DNA from: Sphaerolaimus hirsutus
Lineage: Eukaryota; Nematoda; Chromadorea; Monhysterida; Sphaerolaimidae
NCBI GenBank assembly: GCA_964036195.1
Contig: OZ038452.1
Span: 17,478,704 to 17,542,703 of the forward strand
Reading direction: 5' to 3'
DNA: 64,000 nt
A program made the translations under genes and the position numbers. Below the pieces are notes generated by a model, which was not told the origin of the DNA, did no database searches, and worked only from the letters and a program-made list of their open reading frames with translations. Below, one piece after another: positions 22,401 to 56,200 of the stretch; positions within the stretch are counted from its first letter, which is position 1; each line of letters starts with the position of its first letter.

Positions 22401-25400
22401 AAATGCTGACGAAAAAAAAAATTTCCCTCGTATTAACGCTCCTGAAATACCCCCATGTCTGTGGGCCGGCGCAAAATAAACATGTTGTATTTCAAGTAAA
22501 TACTGTAGTTTTTTATTTAACACTGTAGCTGTCTTTTTAGAATTTTTTAAGCTTTTTGTTTCAAACATGTTTGACATTTGATCGGTCGCAGGCTGAAACG
22601 TCCGCTGGTGAGCCCGATCGCAAGCCTACAGTCCAGCAGCTGGAGAATATTGTTGAAAAACAGAAAATGTTTTTGAGTGATTGCATAAGTCTCAAGGTTA
22701 GAATCTACTGTAGATACTCATTTTGATTGTCATTTTGACGCTGAATTTGACGCCCGCAGAGTCGTGATATAGTCGGCGCACTGAGCGAGTTATGCCGTCA
22801 AAGCGACCAATTATCCCGTGTTGTGTGGAAGTCTCTGGTCGCTTCTTTATGGTCAACGTTGTCCAGCGAACAAAGGGATGTGAGTATTTTCTTCCAAGCT
22901 CGCACTGTCTATTTTCAACAAAATATTTTCCCCATTTCCCTTCGTCCGCCGCAGTGTCTGTCGCACGAGATCACGCCGTTCATGACTTCGGGCGCGCACG
23001 TGGCGCAGGGAATGCAGGGTGGCGATTCCGTGATAGCTACGTTCCTGGATACCATACTGGCGTGCAGACCGCAGATCAGCGTCAAGCCGAGTATGATCAA
23101 GGTGACTATTGCAACATGATGACAAAACTTTTTGTGGTGCTTGGTGATTATGAACAGTGCACGGCGTATGCCAGTCGGCCAGTGGTGTCAAAACACATTT
23201 GAACTCAATCAGTTTCTGCTTTTGTGGGTAAAAACTGTTGTTGTTTTTTAATGCAAAAACCCAATTTTTCACAAAAACACTAGTTTTTTTTTGCAAAAAA
23301 ACCCCTCAAAACACATGAAAATGTTTTTGAAGACCAAAACTTACCATCTTTTTCCCGCAGCACATCGGCCGTTGGCACGCGCGGCAGCAGCGGGGCATCT
23401 TGGCGCTGGAATCGCACGTGAACTGCCTCGCCTCGCCGGCGATCGCGAGGCGTTTGTGGTCGCCGCCCGAAGTGCTGCGCGACGGCTACGCCAGTGTGAA
23501 ATGCGAGGGCATCCTGCCAGAGTTCGACGGCGATGCGCGCATGGAAGAGGAGTACCTTGTTAGTTTGTGGGGGACTGATCGTGGGGCGGACGTGCCATGG
23601 CATCACGATATCGTATATGAATTACCGTTTTACGTCGAAATACTTTCCCATAATTACAGTAATTCTGGAAGGGGTATTTCGATGGGGGTTATTTTTCCTC
23701 AGCTCGCTCAGACCTGCGGGTATTTCGAGGGGGCATTCTAGGAAATACGGTAATAACGTTTTCGTATCTATTCGTATCACCTGTTCGTATTTAAGACAGT
23801 TCATATATACATAGGGTTGGAAAAAAATCAATTTTTTTAAACGCCTTGATAAAAAAAACAATAAAAAATGATTTTTCAAAATTAAAATCAGATTTTTTTA
23901 AAATCGCCGAAGATGGGAGTATAGAGAAAATATATGTGTATGTTAAGTGTCAGACAATGTATTGATATATCTATTGTGGTCATATTGGGCCCACACACGC
24001 TAGTTGACATCGCTAATTTGTGTCAACTCAATGTCAACTAAATAACACAAAAATATGCATAGCATGACACTTAACAGAAACAATGAAAACAAAGTGTCCT
24101 GGTGTAAAATTTACTATGCTCTATCAGATATTTAAGTTGAAATCACATAATTCACCAAAATTTAGTTGACACGAATTCAGTAGACATCCAGCATGTGTGG
24201 TGCCATTATGACTGTGGAGTCAATGGGATAGTATTATAAGCAGTGATTTCATTCAAAAATATCCATTTTACGTCGACTTATTACGTATATCGCCTTTTGT
24301 CGAACGTTCGTGACTTCAAGAGAAGTTGAGCATGGAATAGTGCTTAAATAAGGCTGTAAGAAAAGGCTAATACATTGTCAGTGATGCTACACACTGTAGA
24401 AGTATGTAGGAGCACATTGGCTGTAGGGTTCAAACGGGACCAGTTTTTCGGACCGGGACCGGGACCAGAAATTTTTCTTATCGGGACCGGGACCGGGACC
24501 GGGACTAGGTGGTCGGGACCGGGACCGGGACCGGGACTGGCATTTTTCAATTGTCGGGACCGGGACCGGGACCGGGACTGGGGCATCCGGACCGGGACCA
24601 GGATTTGCCGAACCAGGTACCAGGACCACAACCCCCTTTTGAGCCCTTTCGGGACCGATAACCATTTGAATGCATATTTTCAGAAGTTTCATATGATTTT
24701 CACACTTCATTCAATCAAAATTGTCATTAAAATTATAATAAAAGTCACAAAATTCAATTGAGTCACTAAAAAGGACATAATGCATGAAAATTATGACAGT
24801 GAGTATTGATACATAAGCTGGCGCAGTGCTTTCTGAAGGAAAATAAATTTTTCAGCCTTCTCTGATGCCAAATATGAATGAGAATGTTTGGAACTCACCA
24901 AAAAAAAACGTCAAAAATTCGTCGACTGAATGAGAATGCGCCGACTGGCGCAAATTTTTTCAAATTTTACAAGTATTTAAAGGCAAAATTTGGATCCAGT
25001 CCGGTCAATTTTTCTTATCGGGACCGCTGAAAAATTCCGGGACCGGGACCGGGACATGGACTGGGTGGTCGGGACCGGGACCGGGACCGGGACTGGCTTT
25101 TTCAATTGTCGGGACCGGGACCGGGACTGGGGTGTCGGGACCGGGACCGCCCCAGTCCCGACTTTTTGCCGAACCATGTACCGGGATCGCGGTCCCGTTT
25201 GAACCCTAATTGGCTGGGTATCATATACTACACTAGCATATCACGGCTTATTATTACACCGTAGCATGAATAAATGCAATCTTTTACACTAAAAATGCTC
25301 CAAAACCCATTTAAACGCCACCAATGGTAATGTGTATTGGAAATTGCGCGCTTGCGCACAAAAAATTGCAAAATACATAGTGCAAGTCTACCAGAAATTT

Positions 25401-35479: not shown

Positions 35480-37977
35480 ATGGGTGGAACAGCGTCTACT
35501 CCACAGAAAAATGCCGCCGCCACTCCACCCGCAGGTGTGCTTGCACTCATTTCATCCTGTTTCCCGGTGCCACTCCCGGACCCTGTTAAGTGTTTTAAAT
35601 GTTCTAAAATTCCTCGTGAAATAACTACTGGCAAACAAGGAAGTTTGACACTTTGCAGGGTTGCGTCGTTTGTGCCGTAAACTGAACAGCTAGCTGCTTT
35701 ATTTATGTTGGATTTCTCTCTCAGGCTGTCCAATGAGCGGCGTAAACGATCCACCCGAGCCTTACGCCGGCGGGTGCCCCATCAACTCTGCCGCAGGGTC
35801 AGATTTTAATCCAGCCAACATGGTGAGCCTTTTTGCGACATTTTCCAGGCCGTAGTACTCTCCACATCCGACGCGTCCCAGATGCCGGCGCCGAACCAGC
35901 AGCCGGCGCCCGACCAGCCGTTCCCGCTGGCCACCGACCGGCAGAAGTCGTCCATCCCCAAGGCGGGCGGCGACGACGCGTGGCACTACCCCTCGCAGCA
36001 GGGGCCAGCCCCAGACCCTGTTAAGTGTCAAATGTCATGCAAAGTGTCAAAAGTCACGTATAATGCCCTGCGAAATGGCAACCGAGTTGACATTTTGCAG
36101 GGCATTTTATGTGACTTTCGACACTTTGCATGACATTTGACATTTTACAGGGTCTGGAACTGTCACCAGATGTTCTGGAACGCGATGCTGCGCAAGGGCT
36201 GGCGCTGGCGCGACGACGCGCTCGAACAGAAGGACATGGACGACATCATCAAGATACACAACGCCAACAACGAACAGGCGTGGCACGAGATTCTCAAGTG
36301 GGAGCGCATGCTACATTGGCGGTGGGTTGTGTGAAAGTCGACATTGAGTAGGGTGGGAAAGTTTCCGTGACGGGTCGTTTACCGGCTACGTGTAACCTTA
36401 AATCTGAGTGAAAATGTGGAAGTTGTGGTCAATAACATTGAGTAGCGAATTTTGCGTATGCGGTGGTATGGTACAAACGGGATCCTGATCCCGAAATCTC
36501 AAAAAAGGAATCCCGGTCCCGAAACCCCAAAACATGAATCCCGGTCCCGAAACCCCAATCCCGATCCCGCAATATCACAAAAAATGAATCCCGGTCCCAA
36601 ACCCCAATCCCGATCCCGACCCCGAAATCTCTAAAAACCAATCCCGATCCCGAAAAGTCGATCCCGTGTGAACCCTATATGGCGGTAAAAGTTTGCTGAT
36701 TCTGTTTTCTAGCGCGTATAAATCAGCGATTGTATTTCTATTAGAAAAGTGAAAACTTATCGTCCAACACATCAACTCGATGGTCCAACACATTTAGGTC
36801 TGTGCCTTTTCCCACCCACATTTAATAAATACCACGAGCCTCGTGTCAACCTATCAATTCGTACCACTCGCCAGGGAGTGCGACTGCCCGAAGCTGCGCA
36901 GTTTCAAGGGCGACGCGAAGCGGTACACACCGCGCGCCAGGTTCCGCAGCCTCATGGGCTACGAGCTGCCCTTCGACCGGCACGACTGGATCGTCGACCG
37001 CTGCGGCAAGGACGTCAGATATGTCATCGATTATTATGATGCGGCAGCAGTCGATAAAAACACATTCAGGTGTGGATTTTGTTTGGTTGTGTTTCGAGCG
37101 AGCCTGTGCCTCTGTGCATTTTTACCCGCTGTGCATGGTTACCCAGCGTGCATTTTTCGCTGCCCGTTGTGCATGGTTGCCCGGTGTGCATGGAGGGGCG
37201 GCCGCACAGCGGGTAAAAATGCACAGAAGGTCTGAGTCGTTTCGAGCGCTTCCGGAATTTCTGTGCAAGTAAGCTGCACTGCATGTAGTAGCGACATGCA
37301 AGTGATTATCACTGCTCTGCAAGTGTTCTCACCCTGAAAGTATGCAGCCGTGCGAGCATTGAAAAAATTGGTGATTTTGATAAAAAGTAATTAAATATAA
37401 TCTCAGAAGATGTCTCAAAACGAAAATAGCATTTAAAAATTGGGGAGATTTATGTTTTTTAAATATCAGATAGTATAAAAGATGATAAGAATGTGTTTTT
37501 TTACATTTAGCCCAGCTTTTTCCATACGAGAAGAAAATATATATATCTCATTGATATATTCTTATATTTTGTGGGGGTTTCAGATAAATTTAATTATAAA
37601 TATTTTCATTTTGAGAGATTTTCTAAGATTATATTCAATTTCACTTTCACAAAATTACACATTTTTGCAATGCTAGCTGGAGTGCATTCTTGCAGGATGA
37701 ACGCACTTAGCTGCAGCTGTCATAATTACTTGCAGACCGATACTACTTGCAGGGAGAGATTACTGGCAGAGAGGTACAACAAGGTCACATGAAACACTGG
37801 GTTCTGATATTCACGCGTAAAACATCGTTCAGATTCGCTCATTTGGACGTGCGGCCGGCCATGGACTCGTTTCAAAATGTCTGGGACAGAATGACAGTGG
37901 CCTATGTGCGTTTTCGTTATGAATATTTGGGCTTCACTCCGCCGCCTCCCGCCCAGAGCAGCGGCGAAGCTGCCTAA
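35480..37977 (+). CDS. HCCS: HCCS, holocytochrome c synthase (cytochrome c heme lyase)
   Basis: HCCS attaches heme covalently to apocytochrome c in the mitochondrial intermembrane space. Exons: 35480-35534, 35725-35822, 35882-36001, 36170-36321, 36875-37069, 37833-37977; 254 residues plus TAA. Two N-terminal CP motifs (GCPMSG, GCPINS) are the heme-regulatory type. Conserved blocks are [69 protein letters not shown] and VRYVIDYYD. The C-terminus has [17 protein letters not shown]. Introns 1, 2, 4 and 5 are GT-AG. Intron 3 is a whole transposable element, and between PSQQ and MFWNAM no GT-AG pair gives the family sequence exactly (see finding). A GT-AG pair at 36020-36169 would keep frame but add six residues. 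The gene starts 1.8 kb after TRRAP, on the same strand. Confidence 0.93.
36000..36167. mobile_element. HCCS: inverted-repeat element forming HCCS intron 3
   Basis: This 168-bp near-palindrome has outer ends AGGGGCCAGCCCCAGACCCT and (reverse complement of the right end) GGTGACAGTTCCAGACCCTG. The arms continue to pair almost to the centre, around the GGCAACCGAG loop. Deleting exactly this segment joins TCGCAGC to AGATGTTC and gives PSQQ-MFWNAM, the family sequence. Read through, the segment contains in-frame TGA. Because CAG flanks both sides the cut can slide 3 nt: no position gives GT-AG, though one gives GG-AG. Confidence 0.85.
36472..36676. mobile_element. short hexamer-array element (HCCS intron 4)
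   Basis: Same design as 11063-11646 (ends ACAAACGGGATC and GATCCCGTGTGAACCCTAT, internal GATCCC units), with diverged ends. A further eroded relative (GAGACCGA units) lies at about 40607-40780 in nAChR copy 1. Confidence 0.65.
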
Positions 37978-38876
37978 ATGTACCTGTCGATGTCGATTCT
38001 GTCTTGTCTGAAATTGCCTCAAAGCGATGTTATTTATTCTGTGACGTTGAAGTATTTTCTAGTTTTTCATAATTTAGTTTGTTATTTTGAATCAATCTCA
38101 ATATGCATCAATATCTTAACCGATAGGCGTGAAGCTTTCATGGAAATACCGTGCTGGTATCAGAAACAATTGTTTGCCAGTCCTGCTACCATAAAATCCT
38201 GAAATGACCTGTTACACTATCCGTAACAACATCAAAATGGTGCCTTTTGAATAATATTGGTGTGCATAGGTTAATATTTATAGTACTGTTCATGTACCTA
38301 CTTTCTTATTTATACTAGTTTCGTGAGCTAGAAAAATGTTTTTTGGTTATTTGTTTGACATTTTCAGTTATTACGATTAGTATACCATGCAACGTATTCG
38401 TCTGTTCTGAAACTATTGGGTTGGGACAGTCCGTTTGTTGTGTTATGGAACTGTTTTGTTATGGATGTTGTCACCGAATCAATACTCTGCTCGTTTAAAG
38501 AAGTAGAATTGATTTCGCATTTTGGCAAATTTTCAAAATACTGTGATTGCGAGAAACAAGAAAATCTCATGGGTATTCCACAAATACGAAAACATTTTAA
38601 CACACCCGCTCAGTAGTTTCTGGACATTCGAAATATGTGAATAAATGAAATTCTGGTCAGTAGTCATTGACGTCATGAATATCTCTAAACGATTTACTTC
38701 AAAATAGAAATATGTATGGGAAATAACTAGTTTGTAATGTCCTCATGGTGAAGGTGGATGAATGCCTTACCGCTCTGCACCCGAGCATTTATCTTCTCAA
38801 ATACACTCAAATAGGTACAATTCACCAGTCACACACAAAAACGCTCTAATAGGCCAGTCAACACTGGTGCAGTCAA

Positions 38877-41800
38877 ATGTCGATCTCACTGCTGGGCAGC
38901 CGTGTGCTGTGCGCCGGCGCGGCCGCGTGCAGGTGCAGCAGGCTACCAGCGCCCGCCGTCAAGTGGACCACCAGTCTTCTCGGGGTTCGGTGTGTTGGAG
39001 TTTGTTTTTTGGCGTAGTGTGTGGTTTGTGTGTGTACGTTTTGACGCTTGTTGTTTGTTTGATGGGGGATTTATTGGCGGTTGTGTGCAGCGTATCTATC
39101 ACATTACCCAGCGAAGATGCGGTCATGTACTAATTTCAGGTTTTTGTATTATGTGGGCGGCCCGCACAAGTTGACACATCTGTGTCATCTGATCTGCGTC
39201 TATTTACTCGGATTTCGGCTTCACGTGTGGCAGAACGATCTTAAATACGACATTTACGAGCGACATTTTTTTTCAACGCTGCAGCATATTCATTTGGAGA
39301 TTTCTCTGCGATACGTGAACCCCAAATCGGAGTTGACACAGACCCGTTTCCACACAAGTGTCAACTAGTGTGTGGGCAGCCATTCGTGTATAAATATTCA
39401 GCATCATTCAATCTTTATATCCGTTCATCACTGCCACCTCTGGGTCGGTCACAGTAACCGTCAGGTAGGGTGCCCTGCGTTTGGACATTAGATTTACACT
39501 GCGCTTTGAGTATTCTAATCGCTTGCGTAGCGCACATCTTGGCTAACTTGAATAGTATGAAGGTAGAACTGAACACTATGAAAAGCGTGAACATGTAGAG
39601 GCAGGCGCGGTCTATGGCCATGGCTGCGAATATCCACTGCGTGCGCCGTTCCCCCGTTTCGTCCTCGCCGCGCAGACGGTCTGTCACCCGCTGCGTGTGC
39701 GTGTGTGTGTGCGCGTCGCGAATGGCGCCCCAAACACTAGTTGACACACGTGTGTCAACTGGTCTGTGTCAACTCAGAGCTTGGCTTCACGTGTCGCAGA
39801 GCCATCTCCAAATGCACACGCGGCAATGTTGAAAATAGATATTACGGCAAGTGCATTGGAAGATAGCTCTGTGACGTGTGAAGTTCAAATCTAAGTTGAC
39901 GCAGATCAGTTGACACACATGTATCAGCTAGTGCGTGGGCCGCCAGTATATGCTGCGCGAGTCGAATGCGCGGCTGCGGCTCACTTTGACCCTGCCGTGT
40001 ATGCTGTAGAGCATGACCAGCACGCCCTCCTCGTACGTGCTCAGCCCCATCTCGCCCCTGTGCTCCGCCAGCCGCGCGTACACCTTGTCGATGCGCCGCG
40101 CCACGTCCCGCTCGCTGCGCACGCTATCGCCGCACCCCTGGCAAGTTACCAGCTATTTGGTGCAGATGTTTGCCGCATTCAGATTCAAGTGGTCCACTCA
40201 CCTTCAACAACTCTTTCGCCTGCGGGGAGATGCACTTGACCAACCACTTGGGCGCCATTTCTTTTGCCTTGGGTCTCCTCTCTTTGCCGCCCGACCTGTG
40301 CATGGCCACCAGCCACGGCAGCCACTTGAGAAGACAGTCTCGAATCTGCAATTTCTCATTCTCGCATCCATTTCTACAATAGTTACAAAAATAAATAGTC
40401 TTAATGGTAACTTCAAGGCGAGCTGTTATTTACCTTTGGTGATATTTCTGCTAAATCTGGGTCGAAAAGGTGCCCAGCTAGCACAGCCACGGTGAGCACC
40501 AGCGCCGCTGCCACGATCACCATGCTGGTGCTAAAAAAGACGCCTGAGTGCGTTCGGCAGGGGGTTTTGTGTTTAATTATATCGTGGTGAAACCACGTGG
40601 CGGGTAGGTTCAAACGAGACCGACTTTTCGAGACCGATACCGAAACTGACATTTTATTGTTTGAGACTGGGAGTGAGACCAGAGTAGCTCGACATTTTTG
40701 GGCTGAACATTTTGAAAGTCATAACTTTACAAGAAATTTTCGACACCGATACCGAGACCGCGGCTTCGTTTGAACCTTGGTCGAAGGTAAGTACCTATGA
40801 TAGGTACTGCGAATGAAGTGGCGGGCGTCATGCGCGACACGTAGTCCAGAAAAACGGTGATCGCCAGCAGCACAGTCACCTCTGCGTGTGCGCCGTGAAT
40901 TCACATCACTACCATTCTCATCCACACCATTTTATCTCCATTAAATTTGTCTCACGCAATCCGATCTTCTCGCCGCAGTCGGGCGGCAACAGGAAGCCTA
41001 TGAGGCACATGATGGTGACCAAAATGCACGGCAGTATCAAGTTCAGCCCGTAGTAGAGCGTGCGCCGGCGCATGTGCAGGTAGAACTTCAGATCCAGGTA
41101 GGGCTCTGGGCAACAGTCGTAGAACTGTTGGTTGCGCACCGCGCGCGCCCCTGTGTGTAATGATACGTGTAACTTGCGTTTGTGGGTGAAATGTGTGAAG
41201 TGGTGCTGTTCAGTGCCCTACTGAAGATGTCCCATTCGCCGTTGATCATGTACTCGCTCATGTCGATCGCCTCCGGCTGCAAGTCGATTTTCGACCCGTC
41301 GTAGGTCCACGATCCGAACTGCGACGAGTGTGAAATTTCGCGCTTTGTAAATCATTTTTCGTGCATGGCGCCTCCTTTTTTCTAGCGTCATTACATCGTA
41401 AACGTCGATATATATATATATATATATATATTTAAATTAATATTTCTTTATTTTGTGGCGTGACAGGCACCTTGAAGTGGCAGGTCTGCTCGTCGAATGG
41501 GAACCAGGTGATATCAATCTCGCAGCTGATCTGGAAAATTCCCGGCGGTATCCAGTTGACGGTGCCGTCCGAGTAGATCACCATGTTCGTGGGGTAGGTG
41601 GAGTCGAATTCAGCGTCCACGCTGTTGTACAGCAGCACGTCGGGCATCCACACCGACCCGTGGGGCATTCGCGTGTCCGTGATGCCGCCGAACTCGTCTG
41701 GTGTCCAGCGCAGCGACCAGTCGTTCCATGACTACATAAATCAGACTATCTTTGTCACTTGACAGTGTGCGTAATTGGCACTTAATAACATTCAAGTGAA

Positions 41801-44800
41801 CTTAAGCTGAGCTGAGCGGTATTTAAGCTGCGTTCATATCTAGATTAATTTTGCGCGTGAACATGTGTCGCCTATTTTTTTTAATACCTAAAACCTGGTG
41901 TGGTATTTTTTATGCCCAACGCCCGTTTTTATTGCGTGTTAAGATTTCCACGCAATTAAAATTATGTTTTAACGCAGTTAAAATCGAAAGGAAACTCACG
42001 TATTTCAGCCAGATGTTCAGTGTCACGATCTGGTTCTTTTCGTCCTGCGTGCGCTTTCAAATATTTATAATAATATAACGGCGGCCCGCAGTCCGCACAC
42101 TAGTTGACACATGTGTGTCAACTCTCAAATTATCTGTGTCGACTCGGACTCCGGCTTCACGTGTCGCAGAGCGATTTTCCAATGCACTTTCAGCCGAAAT
42201 CTGAGTTGACACAGACCAGTTGACACACAGGTGTCAACTAGTGTGTGGGCCGCCAAATAAATGGACACGAATATAAATAGATAGTAAATACAAAGTACGA
42301 ACCACATCGATGATCTGCTGCAAGCTGATGCCCAAGTTGACTGTGACAGGCTGTGATACATTGGCCACTGGTCTGGCCAGCTGCAAATAGTTGTGCTGCA
42401 GATACTCCAGCAGCAGGTGCTCTTCCTGTGAGCTGCTTGCAAGCCGCGCGAAAAGTGTCAAGATTAAAGTGATAAGGTACATTGCCACTTTCCTTTGGCT
42501 GCTTGTTTTATGCTCGGGGACATGCGCGTTTGTCTATTATGAGTCCATCGCGGGTGCGCTTGCAATGTATTTAAAGTGTATTGGTAGGAATTTAGATACC
42601 GAAACGAAGCATTGTAAATCGATGCACTACAGCGCTCTGCCTCGATCTAAGCTAGGTGCAGCTTTTCAAACTTGACAACTCGAACTAAGCAAACATAAGC
42701 TTCACTTATTTTCTTTGCTTTACCGCTGGGCGGATTTCGGCGCGATAAGTATTCCTGTAAATACTGGCGCTAGTAAATACTCATAATCTAAATATGGAAG
42801 TAGAACATGAGCCGCTTCACATTACTTTTGCTCGTAGTTTTGCGACACTGTTATCTTAATGGAGCCTTGGGAACGCAACAGCGCCATCACGGCTAAAAAT
42901 ACAGCTTTGGTAAGCTTATGTCTTTAAGTAGTGGAATTTTAGAGGCGTTACATCTGTCACATGAATTCATGTTCGTCCAGTTGCCGTTTATTTTGCATGC
43001 GAATAACTGAGTAGAACTTTGTAGGCGGATACAAAAATGGTGTAAATTTGTATTTACAAATATAAATATAATGCATTTCACCGGGACAGTAGCGCTCTAC
43101 CGATGGGAACAACAACTGCGGAAAATGGCTAATCACAATCATCAATTAGGCCGGCTCGTCGCCGGTGAGATAGGGCGTGCTGAAGAATATGAAGCAGGTG
43201 GAGCCGCAGATGAGCACCGTGAGGATGACCAGACAGAGGCGGTCGAGCGCGTTCGCCGCGAACACCCAGTCGTTGCGCTGGTCGCCCATCTTGTCCGCCT
43301 CGATCATGCGCCGGGTGATCGCCTGCGCCCGGTCATACTATTTAGATTTTGACCCTCCGGGAGGGGAATGGATAAATAAATAGCAAATCACCACTCCGAA
43401 CGGATAGATAGCTGGAAAAAATTGTTTGGGGGGGGGGGGGTTGCGAGGGTTCATTATATAGGCTCGAGGTATAGAACGACGAGAAGGGATAAAAATTGGT
43501 AAAAATAGGCAATCAAGCACATATATACCTAGCCAGAAATAGCTGAAAATAGACAATAAGACACATAGAATAGTGGTTTTGAAGGTGAAAATGCGCAAAA
43601 AGTCTTGGAAATCAGCGATTTTGAATAAAAATTGGGACAAAACCTCTCAAAAATCGCTCGGGATAGTCAGATAGCTGGCGGATTTTGGCACCCCCACCCC
43701 CCCCCCCCCACTTGGAGCAGAGGCACTGGTCTATCGCAGCCGCGCAAACGCTAACCCTGATCTGCGTGTAGCACATGTGCAGCACGACGATGGTCGCCTC
43801 GGTGGAGGCGTCGTTCAGCTGCGCCTTCTGCTCCGCCAGCAGCTTGTAGCAGTGCGCGATCCGCTCATCCACGTCGCCCAGCTCTTCTTCGTTGTCATCC
43901 TCGCCCGACTTTTCTGCGCGGGGGCACTTTTTGGGGGTCGGGTTCGGGATGGCTTTTTACACTTGAATCACTGCGATAGAATTTGGCAGCCGCTTTTTCT
44001 GGTGGACTTTTTTGGACTTTTCGAAATCACAGCTTAGAGTTGGCTACTGAACAGCGCTTTTAACAGATTTTTAAAGGGGATGGCATTGGAAAAACGTTTT
44101 TTAGCCATCCGTAAATAAATACGCTGCCAGACAATCGACGCGTGTGGCTAGATAACACTTAGCAGAGGCTGACTTCTGTTTTGCAGATACTCGTCAATCG
44201 GGTTCGGCAATGTTGCTCGGCTGATAGTTTTGCCCGGTCTGCTCATCAACAGCAGCCAGGGAATCCAGCTAAGTAGGATCGCGCGCGCCTGGGTATATAC
44301 ATAGGATGAATATCACTAATTTACAACCTCTAAATGTAGCCAAGGCTAAAGTTCGCGCCTACCACTGGCCCCATGGTATTGAAATCTGGAGATCGATGGT
44401 GCACAGCTAACACGGCCACTGTCATTGTGACCGACGCGGCCACCAGGAACATCGTGGTCGAGAAAAACACGCCTGCGAGTCGACGCTTTTTTCTTCACTC
44501 ACTTCTCAGGGGTCTATTACATAGTACGGTTCACCTAAGAGCGGCACTGCCTCTGAAGTCGGCGGCACCATGTCCGACACCATGATCAGGAACACGGTGA
44601 TCGACAGGAGCACGGTCATCTCTGCGCAATCATCTCTAGTTTGCTACGTGCATTACCGATGCTGGGACAAGCGAAGGGTCGTTCACACGGATGTTTTCCG
44701 ACAACCACAGTTGAAAGAGTTCCATATTCAAGTGAATGGTTCCATATTCAAGTGAATAGTTCCATATTCGAGTGAAAATGTAGCGGAGTATATATGTTAT

Positions 44801-47800
44801 AAAAAAAAAATACTAAGGCGCACACACATACCAAACAGCAATCAATTTTTCGCTTTTGCTCTAAAATTGTAAACTTTTTTAAATGTCATCGATTGTCATC
44901 AGTTATGGGTATTATACGACAACAATCTATGACAATTTTCAAAGTCTACCTATAACTTTTAAGTAACAATGAGAAATTATTTGCTATTTGGCATGTGTTA
45001 GCACCTAAGTAATATATGTGCTTCACCACATTTTCACATGAATATGGAACTATTCACTCGACATATGATACTTTTACATGTGTTGTCGTTGTCGTCACGA
45101 AAAATCCGTGTGAACGGCCCTCGAACGCGCACGCTCGGATGCACTAACGCAGTGTGATCTTCTGGCAGCCGTCGCTGGGCAGCGCGAAGCCCAGTATGCA
45201 CATGAGCGAGATGAGCACGCAGGGCACGATCAAGTTCACGCCGTAGTACAGCGTCCGCCGGCGCATGTGCAGGTAGAAGAACAGCGCCGGGTATGGCTCG
45301 GGGCAGCAGTCGTAGAACTTCTCGTTGCGCACCGCTCGTGTTTCTGTGACGGGTCACGTGTGTCTCGGAAATGTTTTGCGACTTTGGCCCTATACACACT
45401 AGTTGCCAATGACACCTAATGTCAACTGGTTCCGATTCCAATTCAGAGCTTGCTAGTGAGTGAGACTACTCATCATTGTAGAACACATTTATATTAACTT
45501 CATTTGACATATTTTGGCGCAATATTTTTTCAACACTACAACTTCATTTGCAAGATGATTCATAACTTGAACATTTTAGCGTCGTTCATCGGGTCGCCAG
45601 CAAGTATTGAATTGGGATCGGAACCAGTTGACTTTAGTTTCATTGTCAACTAGTGTGTGTATGGCCTTTGTTCTAGCCAAGCCATCCACCGTATACTGAC
45701 TTACTGTATAGGTTCCACTCGCCGGAGACCATGTACTCTGACATGTCCATTGTGGCTTCACCTTTCTCGTTGACCTCCGGCTGTAAGTTCAGCTTGGTAC
45801 CGTCGTACGTCCAAGAGCCGAACTACAAATGCAAAGCAGCCATTACGGCGTGGATATCAATCTACGCCTTTAAAGATTGCTTAAGACATAATAGAAATCA
45901 ACCGGCATTTATCTACCGCTTATCAGCTGAGACGCACTTGGTCACAAGTGAACGTTCTGTGCGCCTCACCTTTAGAAAGCACCTCTGCTCATCAAACGGG
46001 AACCAAGTGATGTCCACCTTGCAGCTGACAATAAAAATGCCTGGCGGTATCCAGTTGACCAGCCCGCCCGCGTAGAGCACCATGTTGCTGCCGTAGGTAG
46101 AGTCGAACGTGGAGTCGACGCTGTTGTACAGGAGCACGTCGGGCGCCCACAGCATGCCCTTGTGCAGCCGCACGTCGGCTATGCCGTCGTAGTCTTCCGG
46201 GTCCCACGCGAGGCGGTAGTCGTTCCACGTCTGCCGGTTTACATGCGTGTACGCGTGTTACTTTTGGTTCTTTGCTTAGTGGGCACTTACGTATTTGAGC
46301 CAGGCGTTGATGGTCAGCTGCTCGTTTTTCTCGTCCTTTGAGTGATAGGCGACAATTTTTTATGTCAGTTCAATGTGTATTGAGTTGACAATGGCGCCAC
46401 ACGCACTGAATGTCAACTGGTTTCGGTGTCAACTCGCTTTTACTTCAATATAGGTTGCAGGACTATTTTTATCGGGTATCATTAAATGTCAACTGGCAGA
46501 CTATTTTCCATTAAGATTTTAGTTGATGGGTTGCGAAACGGTGCTCAAATGGACATAACGACATTGGTTCCTTTTCGACATTGCCGCATGTGCACTGGAA
46601 AATTGTCCTGCTACAAAAATCGAGTTGACACGGAAACAAGCTGACATCTAGTGTGTGTGGCGCCATTGTTAAGTTTGCACACGGCGCCAACCAACCATGT
46701 GTATAATCTGCTGGAGCACGACGCCAAGTTTCACTTCGACCGTCTGCGTCACGTTGGCGACCGGTCGCACGCGGTTGTCGTAGGTGCTCAGCAGCTTCGT
46801 GTACAGCTTGTGTTCCATCTGCGAACCGTCGCACGTGCCCAAGTGCCGCAGCACCAGGAGAGGCAACAATAAGCACATAAATCCATCGGCTATTGGATGC
46901 AATGCGGACATGTCGCCGCGGTTCTGCTCATGCAATTTTTTGCATTAAAAAATGTATTTACTTATGTTAAATAAAAGAGCGCATGCGTTATCGAAATGAG
47001 CGTGAGCGACCACGGCCTAGACTGGATCGCAGCTGGGTTTGACAAGTGTATCATATTTGCATGATTATTAAAAGGATGTGCACACGCGGCGCAGATGCTA
47101 CTGCAATAATAAACGCGGCAATCACTGAGATGAATGCGCTGCAGCACGGCCGCGCTTGAACACCTATACGGAGTGGTTCTGAATATGTATATTTGCACAA
47201 ATATAAATATATCTAGAAAATCAGCGGTTCGCAATACGAAACGCCTCCGCGCTAAAATTGCAAAAAAAATCCAGCTCTTTCAATAAAAAAGTGAATCAGC
47301 CGGCACAGAAGTACCTCGGGCAGTTGCTTCGAAATACCGCATCGCTCTCGGACATTGTCGTCTTAGCGCATTGTGCGCACTGCGGCCGTCGGGCGGCATT
47401 ACCGCCGCCCGTTGCCAGTCGATATTGTGTTCTGTGCAACGAGAGGCAGCTATTTACTTTGAAGCACGTGTATTTGCGTCCGCGCGCACGGGAAGTACGT
47501 GCTTCGATGCGGCCGGGCCCCTACACCCAATATCGCTGCGCGGCGGCGACAAATTCAATTATGAGACTTGTCACTTCCGAAATGTATCCAACGGGATTAT
47601 TGTGGTGGGGAAACTTGCAAACCGGGAATAGATAAGGTGCGAGACACTAGAAGTAAATGGGGCGCTATTTAATTCAGAGTTGTCTAGCTAAGTAAAGTTG
47701 GTGGACAACTCGGATTTTGTTTTTGCAAGCGCAGAATCTATGTGGCAAGATCACATCGAGCAGACAGGAAAATTTGCTCTGTGAATTTGTGGTTACCTTT

Positions 47801-50800
47801 TTCTCTGTGTGCAGCTTTTTAATATCTCAATGAGCTACAACATTTGTTCTGCTTCACAAGCTTGCGCAGTCACTAAGGCGTTATTTCGGAAGCTCGGCCG
47901 AACTGTCTGTAATTGTGAGCTCTGGCACTTGGCAGTTCTCTGCACGCTCATCGCACATTTTGAGCTGAAGTTTGAAGTTCTGAGGGGTACTTTTTCAAAA
48001 CCATTGAAAGCTTAAAAGATTGCGCACGCATAAATATTAGAGAGAATTGAACTTGCGAATTGTTGGTGTGAAGTGATGTACAATGTACAGAACAAAAACA
48101 TGTTTGTTCAATCCTTTATCATTGTCAGTTCAAACGGAGAAGTGTGGCAACTCTCTTCAGTATCCAACGATCGTAATGCATATTGATCTAATTGCGAAAA
48201 TTCATGCCTGACATGTGCTTCTTATTTTAAGGCGGTAAAACAAATGAGTGGCTTTTTCGGATGGCTCACGATGGGGAATTATTTGAAAAAATGTGCGTTG
48301 CTGTGGAGGGTTCGTAAATACTGCGTGTCGAAGCTAATAATCGAAATTGCCATAATAAATACACATGGAACCATTCAGAAAAATGCTTTCACGCTGATGA
48401 AAACGTAATGCGGTTTGTGCGGCGCTACATTTTCGCCCACTGGCCACAAGTATTTATTTACAAAATAAATCGAGTTGCCGCAACGAAAACCTACGCTGCC
48501 CGTTAATTTATGGCCCAAAAAGCGGCGGGTTAGGGTAAAAACTGCATGCAGCTGCAGCGGAATGCACGCCTCAGTCGGGCTGCACAATGAGCCCGGATTT
48601 CACGATCTTCGCTACTACGCCGTACTAGAGCCAGCTAACTTTGCTAATGGTGCTCCGTGATGCGGAAAACATACCTTCGTGTGTGCCCGGCACCGCGGAC
48701 GCTTTTGCTGCGAGAGTTTTTATTGGATGGATGAAAGTGCGCTCTGCGTTTAGTCCATGCGTTCTGTTTTTGCCTGGGGGCGGTCCCAGACCCTGTAGAA
48801 TGCCCTGTAAAATGTCAAATGTCATGCAAAGTGTCAAAAGTCATGTAAAATGCCCTGCAAAATGGGAACCGACTTCCCATTTTGCAGGGCATTTTACATG
48901 ACTATTGACACTTTGCATGGCATTTGACATTTTACAGGGTTTGGGATTGGCGCCTGGGCCATGGTCAATGCGGTGCCTTGAAGTGCAGCTGCATGTGCAT
49001 GTATCTCACGCGTATCTAATTTTTTCGTCAAGCTTGTATTGTACATCGGGGCCCACTTGAATACGGATAAAAGAATTAAACAACTTCGAAAGATCATCAA
49101 ACGGTGAAACTTCAAACTACTTGATATTGCACATAGAATTTGAATGACCTGACGCAGAAAGTTTTCGAGCGATGGACTGAGTTCGTCGCGGTGGCGCCAG
49201 CGCACAGTGGGCACGTGGCTGTTGGCCTGCGGCGGCATGTGTCTCGGCGCCATTGGGCTAGGGGGCGTAACACGGTTAGGCGACATTTTTGTCTAGTTTA
49301 CTGTAGTGCCTCGAATAACTCCCCCATCTAGAAGGACTACCTACCCAGTGTCAAGCAGTCGTGGAAAAAACTATCTCGTTGCTCCGCCTTCGGTTGGTAG
49401 CACATGCTACGCATGCCAAAAACATGAATTTAACATGAACTCTGAAATTAACATGCATAGAGTACATCTTCATTGAAATTGACATTAGGTTCTTATGGAA
49501 TTATTGATGGAAAATACCCCTCGCCCGGAAAACATCTCATTATTTAATGATTCCCCAGTCAAACTGTGAAAAAACACGTGAGGTGTTATTCGAGGCGATG
49601 GCATAGGCTCGCTTGGTATGTAAACTGCGTGGCATGTAGACCCGTTGCGGGGGTCCCTCGGGCGGCTGCTCACCTTGCTATTTATCCATAGGCTACTATT
49701 CCCTAAGCACTGCCCCCAAATCGCTCAACCATCTACTATCTAAGTGGTGCGAAATTTGAGCGATTTTTCACAACCTTCACCCAAAATCACCAAATTGTGC
49801 TCCATTTTGTCAATTTTGCAATACATGTTTATATATAGTGTGCCCCAGAATAATTTTCAGCTATGTATCCCTCCGGTGGAGAGATTTGTTATCTAAACAC
49901 CTGCCCGATCAAGTGGCCCCCAATTTTTTATTTTACTTCTGACGTCCTATCGGATGCACCAGAAGATGTAACTTGGGGTAGATAGATATTGGCGCAACCC
50001 CCCTCTACTTCGCATGGATTGAAGAGGTCGCGGCGACCCCCTACAGGGTGGGTCGCTGAGTGCAAAAAAAATTTTGCAGCTTTTTTAGAGTGCCACACAG
50101 GTCTGGCCCCCACTGATTTCTTGAGACCTTGGACCCACTTGAGACCTTTAACCCTCCCCCATAAATTATTGTAAACCAGCCATGCAAGTGTCTAATAAAA
50201 AAGTTGTAAAATCTGATATTTTGTCAGCCACCTGGGGGGAGGGGTTCATGTGGTGTGCGGTTTTACGTCGGATAATATATTTTTAGAGAATATTTCATGC
50301 TTATTTCACATTGTCAACCACATTAGTGTTAAAACAACACAAAAGTGTCCATTTTTTTAAATTCAATTGAATGCTGGACTTGTGTGGGACAGTAACATTT
50401 AAATAAATTTTAAACGTTGCACCCCACACTGTGGTGAGTTTCCAAGAGCCACCTGGCCAGTGTATAGTAGGGGAGGGGTGTTGGGACACATCCTTAAAAT
50501 TTTAGATTTATACCCCTCCCACAGCTGGAGATACGGCACCCGCAGCGTAAGAAATCAAGTGGGGGCCGGACCTGTGCGGGACAGTGAAAACGCTGCTAAT
50601 TTTTTTCACATATACGGCGACCCCCTCTATAGAGAGTCGCCGCTGCCCCATTTATTCATGAGGGGTAGTGGGGGGTTGCGCCTATATACCACCCAAGTTT
50701 TAGTTTTCCACCCCTCCCACAACCGGAGATATGGCCTGATAAGTGAAAAAAAATAGGCGGCCGGACTTGATCGGGCAGGTGTTTATGATGCTGCCGCGAT

Positions 50801-52726
50801 AGTCAAAACCTTGGAATTGCCTGATCCGCTGTCTACATGCCAAACGGGTTACATGTCAAGCGACACAGGCCCGCGGCGATATGGTAGATAGATATGCCAT
50901 AGGCCCTCCACACGCTAGTTGACGCCAAAATTAGCGTCAACTCAGAGTCAACTGGTCAAAAATTCAATTGACTCTGAGCCATTTACAATATGTATCCAAA
51001 AAATCCCCTTCTTTCATTCTACATCAATCGACTTCTCAATATTTCTTAATCAACACATGTGAAAAATTAAAAATAGTTATACTTAAAACAGTTGACTCTG
51101 AGTTGACTCAATCGACTTCTAAAAAGTAGCGTCAACCACCGTGTGGAGCGCCATAGACACGACCATTAAAATCCGATCCGTGAATGTCAGGCTCACAGAA
51201 TCTGGTCTGAGCATGGTGGATTGGCGGCTGATCAAAGGCATGCGCCCGCCGCTCACCGACGACGAATGGCGCGCCGAGTTCGACAAATACAAGCAGTACC
51301 CCGAGTATGCGTTGTGAGTTGAGCAGCGTTTTTTAGAGTTGAGCGGCCGGCACGTCTTGTTTGTTGAACCACTCAGCAAGTCTGGCGACCAGAAGATGAG
51401 CCTGTCCGAGTTCCAGTTCATCTGGCGCATGGAGTGGGCGCACCGCATGTGGGGCCGCGCCATCGGCCTGGTGCCATTTCCAGACCTTGTAAAATACTCT
51501 GTCAAATGTCAAATGTCATGCAAAGTGTCAAAAGTCGTGTAAAATGTCATGCAAAATGGCAAACCTACGTTTGCCATTTTGCAGGACATTTTGAGTTTTG
51601 ACACTTTACATGACATTCAACACTTACAGGGCATTTTACAGGGTCTAGGACTGCCCCCCGGTCTTTTTCGTGCCGGCGGCGGCCTTCTGGGCCCGCGGCT
51701 GGTTCAGCGCCGCCGTGAAGAAGCGAGTCGTGCTGGGCGGCGTGCTGCTGCTCGGACAGGGGCTCCTCGGCTGGTACATGGTCAAGTCCGGCTTGGACCC
51801 GTCCAAGAACACCGATAAGCATATTCCCAGAGTGTCGCAGCACAGGTAATAATTTAGCTTGGCTTCGTGTAGAGATTACTCACTCACAGCGGAATTGTGC
51901 AGATTAGCAGCGCACCTGACTGCAGCGATGGCGCTGTACGCGTTGCTGTTTTGGACCGGTCTAGGTCAAATTTTGACACCCGTCGCTCGAGAGGTGTGTT
52001 TGATGCAGTGGTTCCCTTAGACAGTCTCAATCAACTTTTCGAGTGACCCCCTTGCGCTCAGGTGGCGGGTATGGGGCGTCTGCGCGCATTGACCCACAGC
52101 ACCAAGGCGGCGGTTTTCACCACTGCTTGCATTGGTAAGATATATGTTGCATTCAATTTGTATTTATTCATTTGTTTCATTTATTCATTGGGTTGTTCCA
52201 CATACCGCGGTCGTGCTAAATGTATACATCGTGAGCTTGATCGTGATGAAACTGCGCAGGTGCATTGGTAGCCGGTCTAGATGCGGGTCTGGTCTACAAC
52301 TCGTGGCCGTCTTATGCGGGCAGATGGGTGCCCGAGGACATCTGGGTCAAGGAGCCTGCCTGGCGCAACTTTTCTGACAATCCCGCAATGGTGCAATTTA
52401 TCCACAGGAACATGGTTGGTTTATGAAGTGTACAGTTTCATGTCATTTTCATCCTGTGATGCACGCGGCAATGCGCACAGGCCTACCTAACAGTAACCCT
52501 GGTCGCCGCCACTTGGCTGGCGGGCAGACGAGTGCCGCTGCACGGTCGCGCCCGCGTCGCGCTGCACGTGCTGCTCGCGGCCGCCGGCGTGCAGGCGGGG
52601 CTCGGCGTGACCACGCTGCTGTTGTACGTGCCCGTGTGGGCGGCCGCCATGCACCAGCAGGGATCCATGCTGCTGCTGTCGGCGGCGCTGTGGCTCAGTC
52701 ACGAGATCAGACGCGTTCCCAAGTGA
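38877..52726 (+). CDS. COX15: COX15, heme A synthase
   Basis: COX15 oxidises heme O to heme A for cytochrome c oxidase, in the inner mitochondrial membrane. Exons: 38877-38989, 49158-49274, 51191-51313, 51377-51470, 51661-51845, 51903-51993, 52062-52134, 52260-52414, 52481-52726; 398 residues plus TGA (human 410). Family sequence: [45 protein letters not shown], and C-terminal HEIRRVPK. The four heme-ligand histidines are visible in [20 protein letters not shown] and AMHQQGS. Exon 1 is inferred: a basic, Arg/Ala-rich presequence starting at 38877 with a donor in the phase exon 2 needs. If correct, intron 1 spans 10.2 kb and hosts two receptor genes on the other strand. Intron 4 is an exact transposable element. 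AATAAA follows the stop within 10 nt. Confidence 0.9.
39415..42482 (-). CDS. nicotinic acetylcholine receptor alpha-type subunit, copy 1
   Basis: This is a Cys-loop ligand-gated cation channel subunit. Exons in coding order: 42482-42303, 42044-42000, 41731-41471, 41318-41222, 41150-40956, 40881-40795, 40543-40434, 40345-40202, 40137-39985, 39690-39415; 515 residues. A signal peptide starts [17 protein letters not shown]. The Cys loop is [15 protein letters not shown]. Vicinal cysteines (FYDCCPEPY) mark an alpha subunit, resembling the alpha7/ACR-16 class. M1 is in exon 5, M2 in exon 6, M3 in exon 7, and M4 ([19 protein letters not shown]) in exon 10. The M2 ring is unusual: Glu is kept at -1', but 2' is Gly, 16' Asp and 20' Arg ([20 protein letters not shown]). 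All introns are GT-AG. The gene lies inside COX15 intron 1 on the opposite strand, 0.66 kb downstream of copy 2. Confidence 0.92.
39724..39944. mobile_element. GGCGGCCC/TAGTTGACAC element (nAChR copy 1, intron 9)
   Basis: Ends GGCGCCCCAAACACTAGTTG and, reversed, GGCGGCCCACGCACTAGCTG, with internal complementary ACACACGTGTGTCAACTGGT motifs. It lies inside a GT-AG intron (39984-39691, minus strand). Confidence 0.75.
42080..42254. mobile_element. GGCGGCCC/TAGTTGACAC element (nAChR copy 1, intron 1)
   Basis: Same family. Others in the window: 39156-39381 (COX15 intron 1), 45392-45666 and 46393-46664 (nAChR copy 2), 50902-51152 (COX15 intron 2), 53551-53960 (interrupted), 57943-58175 and 58443-58654 (ShKT/DB gene). 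A more distant relative is 3009-3205 in TRRAP intron 4, resembled by 63760-63960. Confidence 0.7.
42483..43145. other. region between the two receptor genes
   Basis: Runs from the copy 2 stop to the copy 1 start (minus strand). It must hold the copy 2 3' end and copy 1 promoter unless the genes are co-transcribed. No repeat element or open exon recognised. Confidence 0.5.
43146..46911 (-). CDS. nicotinic acetylcholine receptor alpha-type subunit, copy 2
   Basis: Exons in coding order: 46911-46696, 46335-46291, 46230-45970, 45822-45705, 45343-45149, 44621-44535, 44472-44363, 44288-44174, 43913-43756, 43322-43146; 493 residues. It has a signal-like N-terminus, a Cys loop ([15 protein letters not shown]), vicinal cysteines (FYDCCPEPY), M2 [21 protein letters not shown]3 in exon 7, and M4 ([19 protein letters not shown]) in ex. 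10. Exons 2, 3, 5, 6 and 7 have exactly the lengths of those in copy 1 (45, 261, 195, 87, 110 nt), so the two are tandem duplicates. Here the intermediate-ring residue at -1' is Gln, not Glu, while 20' is Asp. The start is the first ATG before the hydrophobic stretch. Exon 4 carries a short NEKGEAT insertion relative to copy 1. Confidence 0.92.
43341..43712. mobile_element. GATAGATAGCTG hAT-like element, eroded (nAChR copy 2, intron 9)
   Basis: Shares the GACCCTCCGGGAGG, GATAGATAGCTGG and long C/G-run signature with 1849-2334. Other eroded copies: 14730-14850, 17440-17750, 32934-33170, 35090-35160, 49640-49920. Confidence 0.6.
46912..49157. other. distal part of COX15 intron 1, upstream of receptor copy 2
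   Basis: Apart from the inverted-repeat element at 48776-48954 I see no exon. The copy 2 promoter should lie at its left end. A 125-codon open frame at 47258-47635 starts with TTG and is not supported. Confidence 0.5.
48776..48954. mobile_element. same inverted-repeat family, copy in COX15 intron 1
   Basis: Ends GGGGGCGGTCCCAGACCCTG and, reversed, GGCGCCAATCCCAAACCCTG; the arms are almost perfectly complementary, centred near 48873. It lies 203 bp upstream of COX15 exon 2. Confidence 0.75.
51470..51659. mobile_element. COX15: inverted-repeat element forming COX15 intron 4
   Basis: This 190-bp near-palindrome belongs to the same family; its left end is GGTGCCATTTCCAGACCTTG and its right end, reversed, GGGGGGCAGTCCTAGACCCT. 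Deleting it exactly joins GGCCT to GGTCTTTTTC, giving [16 protein letters not shown] against human GRLVGLV-YILPAAYFW. Left in place it would both shift the frame and add a stop (TAA 24 codons in). The cut can slide within a GGT repeat; one position starts GT, but none ends in AG. Confidence 0.85.
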
Positions 52727-53234: not shown

Positions 53235-56200
53235 CTATCCATTGTATCCCGACTTGAAACAGCCCTGCATTTTATTCAAGTCGTCGAGACACGGCAGCAG
53301 CTTCGCATTGACCTCTGGCAGCCCGCCGGACGGGTTGCAAAATGGCAGGCACAGCGATTGGACCCCTTTGGACTTGCAGCACGACTTGTGGTCCTTTTTG
53401 TTCGTCAGGCACTTTTCCAACCACGGCAGCAGCGCGTTCCGGGGGCAGGTCTTTCTAATCCAGATTTCCGTCAGCTGAAAACATTGGTATGGGATGCGGC
53501 ATAAAATACGTACTGCTCAGCTTTTTGGGTATAATGATTGCAGTAGAAATGGCGGCCCACACGCTAGTTGACACATGTGTCAACCGGGGGCAATCCCAAG
53601 CCCTGTAAAGTGTAAAGTAAAGTGTCAAATGTAAAGTCAAATGCAAAGTAAAGTGTCAATCAAATCAAAAAAAGAAAATATTTTATTACTGAACTTTGCA
53701 TGACAATTGACACTTTACTTTGCATTTGACTTTACATTTGACACTTTACTTTGCATTTGACTTTACATTTGACACTTTACAGGGCTTGGGATTGCCACCT
53801 GGTCTGTGTCAACTCAGAATTCGGCATCAAGTGTCGTAGAGCAATCTTGCAATGCACTTGCCATAATATTTTTATCAAGATTGCCGCATGTGCATTTGGA
53901 GACCGCTCTGCGCCGGGTGAAGACGAAATCTGAGTTGACATAGACCAGTTGACACACCGTCAATCTGGGACGATGAGGTTTTTCTAATTGTTTGCAAAGT
54001 TTGCGTGTGCGGCACCTCAGTTTGCGATCGTGATCCCGAACCCGATTCCAATGCTGAAATTTGAAACCCTTGTTACTAATTCCGAAAATTTCCTAATCTC
54101 AACCTGATCCGGATAAATTTTATAAATAGTATGCATGTCTAGTGGTCACTTGTCACAGTAACCTTATAACTTTACTTGCCACCTTTTTTCTCACTTACCT
54201 ACTTTCACAATTGACTTTGGCACCAGGTGGCAGTCCCCAAGCCCTGTAACGTGTAAAGTCAAGTCTCAGATGTCATACAAATTTGTCAGGCAAAGTGCAG
54301 TAATTTTTGTTTTGTTTGACACATTACATGAAATTTGACACTTGACTTTACAGGGCTCGGGACTGCTCCCTAGTAAGACACGCTGTAGACACCGTTTTCT
54401 CAAGTTGCATGAGCTATCGTCCTGCATTCGCACTCACCGACTTTCTGTTGAAAGCGCTGAATTTGCAATACTGGTAGCACTGCGATGGTATCTTACTGTT
54501 GCTTTTGCAGCATTCTTCCACTTGTGCGTCTGTGCCAGGCTGCGTGCGCGAAAATGAATAGTGAATATAGATAGACATCATATCGTAATGAGACCAGGGG
54601 CCAGATTTAATACTCCCTACAGATTTGTAGGGTAGGGCGTACGCCCGATAGATTTTTCAAAGTTCAGCCGCATCGACGCACATGCACCGAGAGCAAGGCG
54701 GTTCATAAAATACACTAAACTATCCCTTAACGTCGCCGATATTGCAATCTGACGGTTATCGCTTCGATTTTGGCTCGGAAATCACGATTTCGTCATTTCG
54801 TGGCCGTCTGCCAATTCGTTTTTTTTTTATTTTGTCGGGCAGGTTACTCGCATAAGTCGCGCTTTTGTACGCTCGTGCATGCATTTCTTTCTTGTCGCTG
54901 CCCTCATGGTTTCGGTTGCAGACAGTGAACACTAAAAAAGTGACCACCTGACTACACAAAAGCGTGACCTATGCGAGTAACCCGCCCGACAAAATAAAAT
55001 AAAAAACGAATTGGCAGACGGCCGAGAAATGACGAAATCGTGATTTCCGGGCCAAAATCGAAGTGATATACGTCATATTGCAATATCGGCAACCTTAAGG
55101 GATGGTTTCGTATATTTTACGAACCGCCTTGCTCTCGGTGCATGTGCGTCGATGCGGCGAAACTTTAAAAATTCTGTCGGGCGTACGCCCTACCCTACAA
55201 ATCTGTAGGTAGTATTAAATCTGGCCCCTGGGGTCTCCAAGATTTTGGCCCTCGCGGGGGCTGGATAGATAGCAAATCGCTCCCCCCGAGGGATAGATAG
55301 CTGGAAAAATTTTCTGGGGGGGGGGGCTCGCGGGGGCAAAATATAGGCTTTTTCAGTGCATAGAAAACCGAAAGGGGAAAAAATCGCTAGTAATCGGTTA
55401 AAAGTGGCTAAAAGTAGGTTTAAAATGGCTAAAAACAGACATACAACCACGCATGTAGCCGGAGAGCACGAATTTGAAGGTGAAAAACTATAAAAAGGTG
55501 CGAAAGTTAGTGATTTTGAGCGAAAATTGGGGCAAAATTTCTCAAAAACCACTCCAGATAGATAGATAGCTGAGCGATTTGGGGGGGGGTCTTTGGGGGT
55601 AGTAGCCAAAAATTTTGCCTCGGGATAGATAGATAGCTGAGCGGCCTCCTGGATAGATAGATAGCTGGCGGATTTGGGGGGGGGCAGCCCCCCCCCAGCC
55701 CCCCCCCCCAAGGAGACCCCTGAATGAGATCACAGTGGGGTTGTCTGAGCTCCGTGGGGACCAATACCGCTACAGCTATAGATACTGGGCCACGCAACAG
55801 GGACGTATCCAGGATTTTTGAGCGGGGGGGGGCTGCTTGTTTACGGAGCCCGGCGAGGGGGGGGGGCTCAGCCCCCCCCCCCCTAAAATTTTAGCTACAT
55901 AGTGGCGGAATGGCGCCATGGCGCTGGCGCCATTAGTAGGCGCCACGCCATGGCGCCATTGGCGTTGGCGTCAGCGCCATGGAACCCTGTATATGTATGT
56001 AAATATACATACAAAACAGCAAAAAGCACAACATTTTTAATGATTTGCGGCCACATGGAGCAAATCTGATGATAATAACTTATATCTGGAGAAGAATGCG
56101 CGCTTGCGCGCAAAATTTTTTACGCTGACGTTGAAAAAGTCGCATTTTCTGGTCACTTTCTGGTCTCGCCCCGGGAGGGGGGGGGGCTGCAGCCCCCCCC

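Follow-up and report, generated by a model that had tools for sequence, protein, structure and literature searches.

A hairpin MITE family that probably serves as introns in coding exons of the nematode Sphaerolaimus hirsutus

HCCS and COX15, two genes in a 64-kb window of the Sphaerolaimus hirsutus genome (contig OZ038452.1, positions 17,478,704 to 17,542,703, forward strand; "the window" below means this whole stretch, which has 45% GC and no N), each carry within a coding exon a copy of the same miniature inverted-repeat transposable element (MITE). The sequence evidence suggests that this repeat is probably an introner, that is, a hairpin MITE recruited as introns, with the 5' GT taken from the element and the 3' splice site from a copy of the target. 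RNA splicing as the removal route, and the exact cut points given below, are what we infer from the DNA. An earlier note on this window had proposed that the genome recruits a DNA element as introns, and that proposal is supported by the orientation bias of coding copies, by the single-locus status of the host genes and by the divergence of the HCCS and COX15 copies from the family consensus (7.9% and 10.3%, respectively).

Hand models were built of HCCS, with six exons, and of as much of COX15 as was available, with seven (Table 1). Counted with its second target copy, the HCCS insert (36002-36169) is 168 nt long (0 mod 3) and the COX15 insert (51471-51660) is 190 nt long (1 mod 3). Reading through either insert gives an in-frame stop, and the second also shifts the frame. 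Both inserts fold into strong hairpins, of -120.5 kcal/mol (z -18.7) in HCCS and -103.1 kcal/mol (z -13.9) in COX15. The positions, family membership, inverted-repeat structure and coding consequences that had been described for the two copies were all borne out. Once the insert is removed, the HCCS protein is open from start to stop and matches Pfam Cyto_heme_lyase with 209.7 bits, and COX15 gives an open protein (its first part not in the model) that matches COX15-CtaA with 305 bits. The claim that deletion restores the protein holds to this extent, and what it shows is insertion, not removal.

Searches of the assembly (348 Mb in 762 contigs) gave four matches for HCCS and seven for COX15, all of them at this locus, which agrees with the view that both genes are single-copy and led us to reject the idea of pseudogenes with intact copies elsewhere. 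The divergence of the two inserted copies lies above the coding median of 5.3%, so that the insertions are unlikely to be fresh mutations. A related explanation takes the copies for damaging alleles or for choices made in assembly, with intact alleles or gene copies in existence. At least one extra contig does resemble an alternative haplotype (C720 repeats a gene of contig C14), yet with COX15 and HCCS each matching a single locus, their copies 8-10% diverged, and many coding genes carrying copies and showing orientation bias, we consider this explanation very unlikely.

The repeat is a high-copy, near-palindromic hairpin MITE made up almost entirely of inverted repeat, with copies usually about 165 or 189 nt long (93 aligned copies of 150-200 nt). 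Its two ends are unlike, one reading GTGCC (GTGCCAG) and the other GGGGC (GGGGCAG); the full end sequences are GTGCCAGTCCCAGACCCTG on one side and GGGGCAGTCCCAGACCCTG on the other. Below, copies are called GT-first or GG-first after the end that lies at the 5' side of the gene. Genome-wide, the exact 23-mer of the GT end occurs 649 times after CAG and 563 times after CTG. A reversed-sequence control of the exact searches gave 0 matches, which, with family matches across the genome, rules out chance similarity among copies. Our sample comprises 120 copies. Of 227 places with the exact internal loop, 100 were listed and 80 of these sampled, 10 of which lacked a detectable pair of ends and were dropped; a further 50 copies were taken from the window and from twenty stretches of 10 kb, 22 of these completed by hand and the remaining fragments among 79 matched places excluded. 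The sampling is biased towards copies that have the exact loop or resemble the HCCS copy. Orientation was clear in 103 of the 120, and the other 17 were excluded.

Insertion is marked by the inverted ends, by a paralogous repeat in which the CTG site is empty and by a 3-bp CWG target duplication set in CCWGG, which is roughly palindromic. If target boundaries may move by as much as 2 nt where this favours CWG, the two target copies are both CAG in 48 of the 103 orientable copies and both CTG in 24 (72 together); with unshifted boundaries 12 of 27 end pairs are identical, 11 of those being CAG or CTG. The statement that no duplicated target is left behind therefore needs correcting, in that both host sites have the 3-bp duplication and exact removal keeps one copy of it. 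The 3-base direct repeats at these sites (CAG/CAG in HCCS, GGT/GGT in COX15) account for the four possible placements of each cut, none of which is GT-AG, as had been observed. Among the orientable copies, the two target copies are often unlike at the middle base only (CTG/CAG 7, CTG/CCG 4, CAG/CTG 3); these differences may exceed what mutation alone would give, the base perhaps being carried over at insertion. Two zinc-finger paralogs (L044 and L068, PGPKFGCTLCGSKFPC) have a family copy at the same codon, with targets CAG/CAG and CTG/CAG, and this insertion may be older than their duplication.

Similar target duplications are reported for the NuwaI group of PHIS (PIF/Harbinger-like) transposons, which have CWG duplications and ends starting GGG (PMC4482050). 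The present family shares the 3-bp CWG duplication and has one GGGGCAG end, whereas its other end is GTGCCAG and no transposase could be tied to its ends among 163 PF13359 (DDE_Tnp_4) matches in the genome, none of them read to its ends. Many of these matches share the same score, and each of these has four TGA codons in frame, which may reflect an intron of the transposase gene; they look like a recently active Harbinger-like family.

Orientation within coding sequence points to the GT end as the probable 5' splice site, because the two strands of a near-palindrome differ mainly in their terminal bases. Codon usage in both strands of the flanks was scored with a model trained on 991 codons from genes in the window, HCCS and COX15 among them. 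At the chosen threshold, the GT end lies at the gene 5' side in 36 coding copies and the GG end in 4 (p=1.9e-7), with counts from 47:7 to 26:4 at other thresholds. The four GG-first copies are those of HCCS, L047, L026:5002 and L027:5002, and by eye we judged the last three to be shadows of an opposite-strand gene, since joining them GT-first yields coiled-coil, Gln-rich and membrane segments; HCCS remains. Restricted to copies with a 3' target copy other than CAG, the ratio becomes 17:3 (p=0.0026), and 17:0 once the by-eye call is applied. Target asymmetry does not account for the bias (CWGG 110 vs CCWG 86 in coding flanks). The tally misses three Pfam-supported copies, L056, L025 and L040, which lie outside the 36. 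The left target copy also favours CAG in coding copies, with a CAG:CTG ratio of 27:14 vs 179:210 in coding sequence (p=0.02).

The strand dependence bears on two other routes of removal. Programmed DNA excision in body cells, as for the internal eliminated sequences of ciliates, would fit exact joins that retain one target copy, as left by a transposase-like excision, but excising near-palindromic DNA should not depend on the gene strand, and we regard this route as extremely unlikely. SOS splicing removes DNA transposons from mRNA independently of the spliceosome, guided by RNA structure; paired inverted repeats trigger it and RTCB religates the ends, and it should depend neither on strand nor on terminal dinucleotides. 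The HCCS and COX15 folds have inverted repeats able to pair into strong hairpins, and dinucleotide-free removal would suit HCCS and the copies with CTG targets; a system that reads the arms, however, should ignore which end is 5', and neither the 36:4 ratio of the family nor that of its non-CAG copies shows such indifference. The CAG enrichment also counts against SOS splicing, which is improbable for the family, while HCCS alone could fit it. In the review of this pathway, nucleases as yet unknown cut the transposon out and RTCB ligates the mRNA (PMC13247085). SOS splicing resembles the present case in that DNA transposons are removed from animal mRNA, and is unlike it in its expected strand-blindness, whereas 36 of 40 coding copies of this family have their GT end 5'.

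The 3' target copy divides the 36 GT-first coding copies into classes, with the triplet CAG in 19, CTG in 13, CCG in 3 and CGG in 1. Exact removal would turn CAG copies into GT-AG introns, CTG copies into GT-TG introns and CCG copies into GT-CG introns. Nineteen of the 36 would thus have GY-AG at their exact borders, and the other 17 would end in TG, CG or GG; HCCS, too, lacks GY-AG borders. A need for non-GT-AG removal, as earlier envisaged for the family, is not family-wide, given the 19 exact GT-AG cases. CAG-class hosts include an intermediate filament protein (L048), a cuticle collagen (L089, where the exact join matches the nematode cuticle collagen domain Col_cuticle_N) and an MFS transporter (L111). 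Outside the count, the same class includes an RNA polymerase (L056, join LPVQQ/DGSCNG, the slash marking the junction), which we take to be mitochondrial, and an ETF-QO protein (L040, NHEEDQ/PAHLTL), whose copy has GT at both ends. In the CTG class we find joins in PKG (GGFGRVEL/V), laminin-beta (FHFTHL/VITFKTF) and THOC3 (GGNDAL/VTLW), along with an STI1-HOP_DP domain protein taken as Hip.

Thirty joined peptides, with the elements removed exactly, were sent to Pfam. At E up to 0.01, 21 had a match, in some cases on one side of the junction only, and 9 had none. Exact joins cross RNA_pol, Fer4_ETF_QO and Col_cuticle_N with equal query and profile spans; for Laminin_N, the THOC3 beta-propeller, Pkinase, Filament, MFS_1, CG-1 and VWA the spans are off by one to three positions. 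The exact laminin-beta and PKG joins leave no junction gap against the solved structures of laminin beta-1 and PKG I. Exact cuts are the simplest reading of these joins, although others are conceivable.

Another explanation is canonical splicing at a nearby GT or AG, with a few residues extra, missing or changed. We scanned a limited range for in-frame GT-AG choices in 20 copies with a triplet other than CAG as left or right target copy, and 18 had at least one such choice. Three of those listed keep the length (L084, L024 and L019), several change it by no more than three residues, and codon gain or loss at introners is in print (PMC9860276). HCCS offers a plausible GT (GTTAAG, +18 nt, adding GPAPDP) together with the exact CAG, and COX15 offers its exact GT with a TCTAG (+12 nt, adding DCPP), both in frame and stop-free. 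Against this, two of the 20 copies have no in-frame GT-AG choice, the three nearest choices in PKG lose five to nine junction residues where the solved relative aligns gap-free, and the common upstream AG site TTTTACAG, 19 nt before the end, shifts the frame whether it is paired with the GT at +18 or with the exact 5' cut. Pfam scores drop by about 9 and 11 bits with the alternatives, although any insertion would cost a similar amount. The COX15 alternative further places its added residues where all 80 bacterial relatives compared are gap-free. Overall, we consider canonical splicing at shifted sites unlikely as the explanation.

COX15 speaks most directly for a cut without AG. Its exact cut in the target register is CTG/GT...CCG/, where the right-hand CCG has probably mutated from CTG. 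The junction is gap-free, from nine residues before to ten after, in all 80 bacterial heme A synthases compared (the best 80 of at least 580 relatives by peptide patterns, all bacterial), and R, G, R, G, P and F are invariant in this stretch. Because the DCPP alternative falls within it, a requirement for exact or near-exact non-AG removal in COX15 is well supported at the sequence level.

For HCCS the situation differs, and the exact non-GT-AG cut previously proposed for both genes stands for COX15 and is unproven here. The element is reversed, so that the exact cut, CAG/GG...CAG/, would be GG-AG. A cut at CCT/GTTAAG (36020) with the exact 3' CAG would instead give an in-frame GT-AG intron and place the six residues GPAPDP between YPSQQ and MFWNAM. 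Pfam scores the exact protein 11 bits above the GPAPDP version, a difference that any insertion might cost, and a search for a solved structure related to HCCS returned none. We infer that HCCS holds a rare reversed copy, removed either exactly (GG-AG) or via the internal in-frame GT. SOS-type removal would be a third route, and we favour none of the three.

The proposed mechanism would run as follows. The MITE would insert at approximately CCWGG and duplicate the 3-bp CWG, its GTGCC end supplying the 5' splice site and the second target copy the 3' splice site. A GT-first copy in a coding CAG would then be an exact GT-AG intron from the start, and a CTG copy, COX15 among them, would be removed at the same two points as a GT-TG intron, or as GT-CG after mutation. 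The base-paired arms may join the exon ends and hide internal AG, with the base of the stem fixing the 3' cut. This last part carries a stronger claim, namely that the family has become a large class of introns and needs GT at the 5' side but not AG at the 3' side, that the base of the hairpin sets the 3' cut, and that GT-TG or GT-CG removal is exact in COX15, PKG and laminin-beta while ordinary introns keep GT-AG. We advance that claim tentatively, as plausible but somewhat short of probable.

Several observations weigh against the introner interpretation or its stronger form. Beyond its GT, the GTGCCAG end is a weak 5' splice site when judged against the consensus, and splicing would have to bypass the better-looking 3' site TTTTACAG. 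The data do not point to AG recognition being lost in general, since the ordinary introns in the hand models of HCCS and COX15 are GT-AG in nine of nine cases. The CAG enrichment is modest: against noncoding copies (12:16) it is not significant (p=0.08), and the genome-wide excess of CAG over CTG before the GT end (649 vs 563) is small (p=0.015). Two copies, L016 and L020:5002, apparently lie on existing splice sites, and without both the orientation counts become 34:4 overall and 16:3 in the non-CAG class; dropping HCCS and COX15, on which the codon model was partly trained, gives 35:3. Finally, frame restoration is expected of any exonic insertion with a target duplication, and we rejected it as proof of removal. 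In the frame test (threshold 4), frame 0 was found in 16 of 16 non-AG and 19 of 22 AG copies read GT-first, and in 7 of 9 non-AG and 3 of 6 AG copies read GG-first, where the rows include strand shadows; these results reflect exonic insertion only and are not counted as evidence of removal.

The two copies on existing splice sites (L016:5000-5165 and L020:5002-5166) appear to sit exactly on them, on the 3' side in L016 and on the 5' side in L020.

A comparison with published systems reveals both precedents and differences. Introners that carry a 5' site and co-opt a 3' site from the target have been reported, and like those transposon-derived introners the present family occupies many genes (36 + 4 similar copies in coding genes among 103 orientable), has inverted ends and a target duplication, and would carry one site and take the other from its target (PMC9860276). 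It is unlike those introners in that 17 of 36 coding copies would be non-AG if cut exactly and in that the whole element is one long hairpin. In the dinoflagellate Amoebophrya, hairpin introners with variable ends are supported by RNA-seq (PMC7789003), and they bear on the parallels that the earlier note had drawn with hairpin introns and with introners generally. They share border direct repeats (3-5 nt there), folding inverted repeats that join exon ends, and non-canonical ends; here, by contrast, the host is an animal, a single family with a clear CWG target is involved, the 5' GT is apparently required and nine ordinary introns are GT-AG.

The larvacean Fritillaria borealis, in which less than 10% of introns are GT-AG, processes its non-GT-AG introns with the U2 spliceosome, and a duplicated U2AF reads the non-canonical 3' ends (PMC13326754). 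The parallel drawn with Fritillaria holds for this processing, and for the MITE origin that was part of it we found no published statement. Sphaerolaimus likewise has two U2AF1-like genes, at C14:3032343-3038016 and C16:15183246-15191469 (L116-L122). Unlike in Fritillaria, the nine ordinary introns here are all GT-AG and both genes, in the exons read, keep zinc fingers like those of the human query; the C16 gene has a diverged middle region. Contig C720 repeats most of the C14 gene and is probably an alternative haplotype.

GT-TG introns are reported from the single human genes GNAS and TSPYL2 (PMC4176328). The open-access literature that we searched yielded no report of a GT-TG introner family and no paper linking introners, intron gain and MITE. 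The novelty seems to lie in a combination, within an animal, of one CWG-targeting hairpin family with a demand for GT and an apparently free 3' end.

Other family copies in the window are listed with the two genes in Table 1. A Cys-rich reading frame on the minus strand ends at or close to the copy at 59026, and the host gene of the copy at 27980 is presumably TRRAP-like. The window also holds imperfect tandem arrays of ATCCCG / CGGGAC units (11070-11637, 24482-25168 and 36472-36670).

Table 1. HCCS, COX15 and copies of the MITE family in the window (positions counted from its first base)
Feature	Position	Strand	Remarks
HCCS gene	35480..37977	+	hand model; Pfam PF01265
HCCS exons	35480-35534, 35725-35822, 35882-36001, 36170-36321, 36875-37069, 37833-37977	+	
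Degenerate one-ended copy in HCCS intron 1 (a GT-AG intron)	35566..35670	+	right limit approximate
Left target copy CAG in HCCS	35999..36001	+	final codon before the insert
MITE copy in HCCS exon	36002..36166	-	GG end at gene 5' side, GT end at 3' side
Alternative in-frame 5' splice site GTTAAGT inside the element	36020..36026	+	+18 nt, would add GPAPDP
Right target copy CAG in HCCS	36167..36169	+	exact 3' splice site (putative)
COX15 gene	51187..52726	+	hand model from 51187; Pfam PF02628
COX15 exons	51187-51313, 51377-51470, 51661-51845, 51903-51993, 52062-52134, 52260-52414, 52481-52726	+	
Left target copy CTG in COX15	51468..51470	+	Leu codon
MITE copy in COX15 exon	51471..51657	+	GT end at gene 5' side
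In-frame upstream AG in COX15, ending GGGTCTAG	51639..51648	+	would add DCPP
Right target copy CCG in COX15	51658..51660	+	exact 3' end, GT-CG (putative)
Family copy	16250..16423	+	outside HCCS and COX15; CTG/CTG target
Family copy	27980..28259	+	CAC/CAC flanks; intronic, by eye
Family copy	48777..48953	+	CTG/CTG target
Family copy	53587..53798	+	CCG/CTG, within another repeat; unfilled relative at 39753 has a single CTG
Divergent family copy	54227..54370	+	
Family copy	59026..59178	+	CTG flanks; right boundary one base off

For the genome of Sphaerolaimus hirsutus, one practical consequence is that conserved genes may come out broken or truncated in gene predictions. The family also touches on two open questions, the origin of new introns and how far the 3' AG rule can relax. 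One family in one genome provides matched natural cases in which the main differences are a single target base (CAG or CTG) and the orientation. Such cases let one ask whether a hairpin replaces AG recognition and would help to distinguish spliceosomal removal from SOS splicing.

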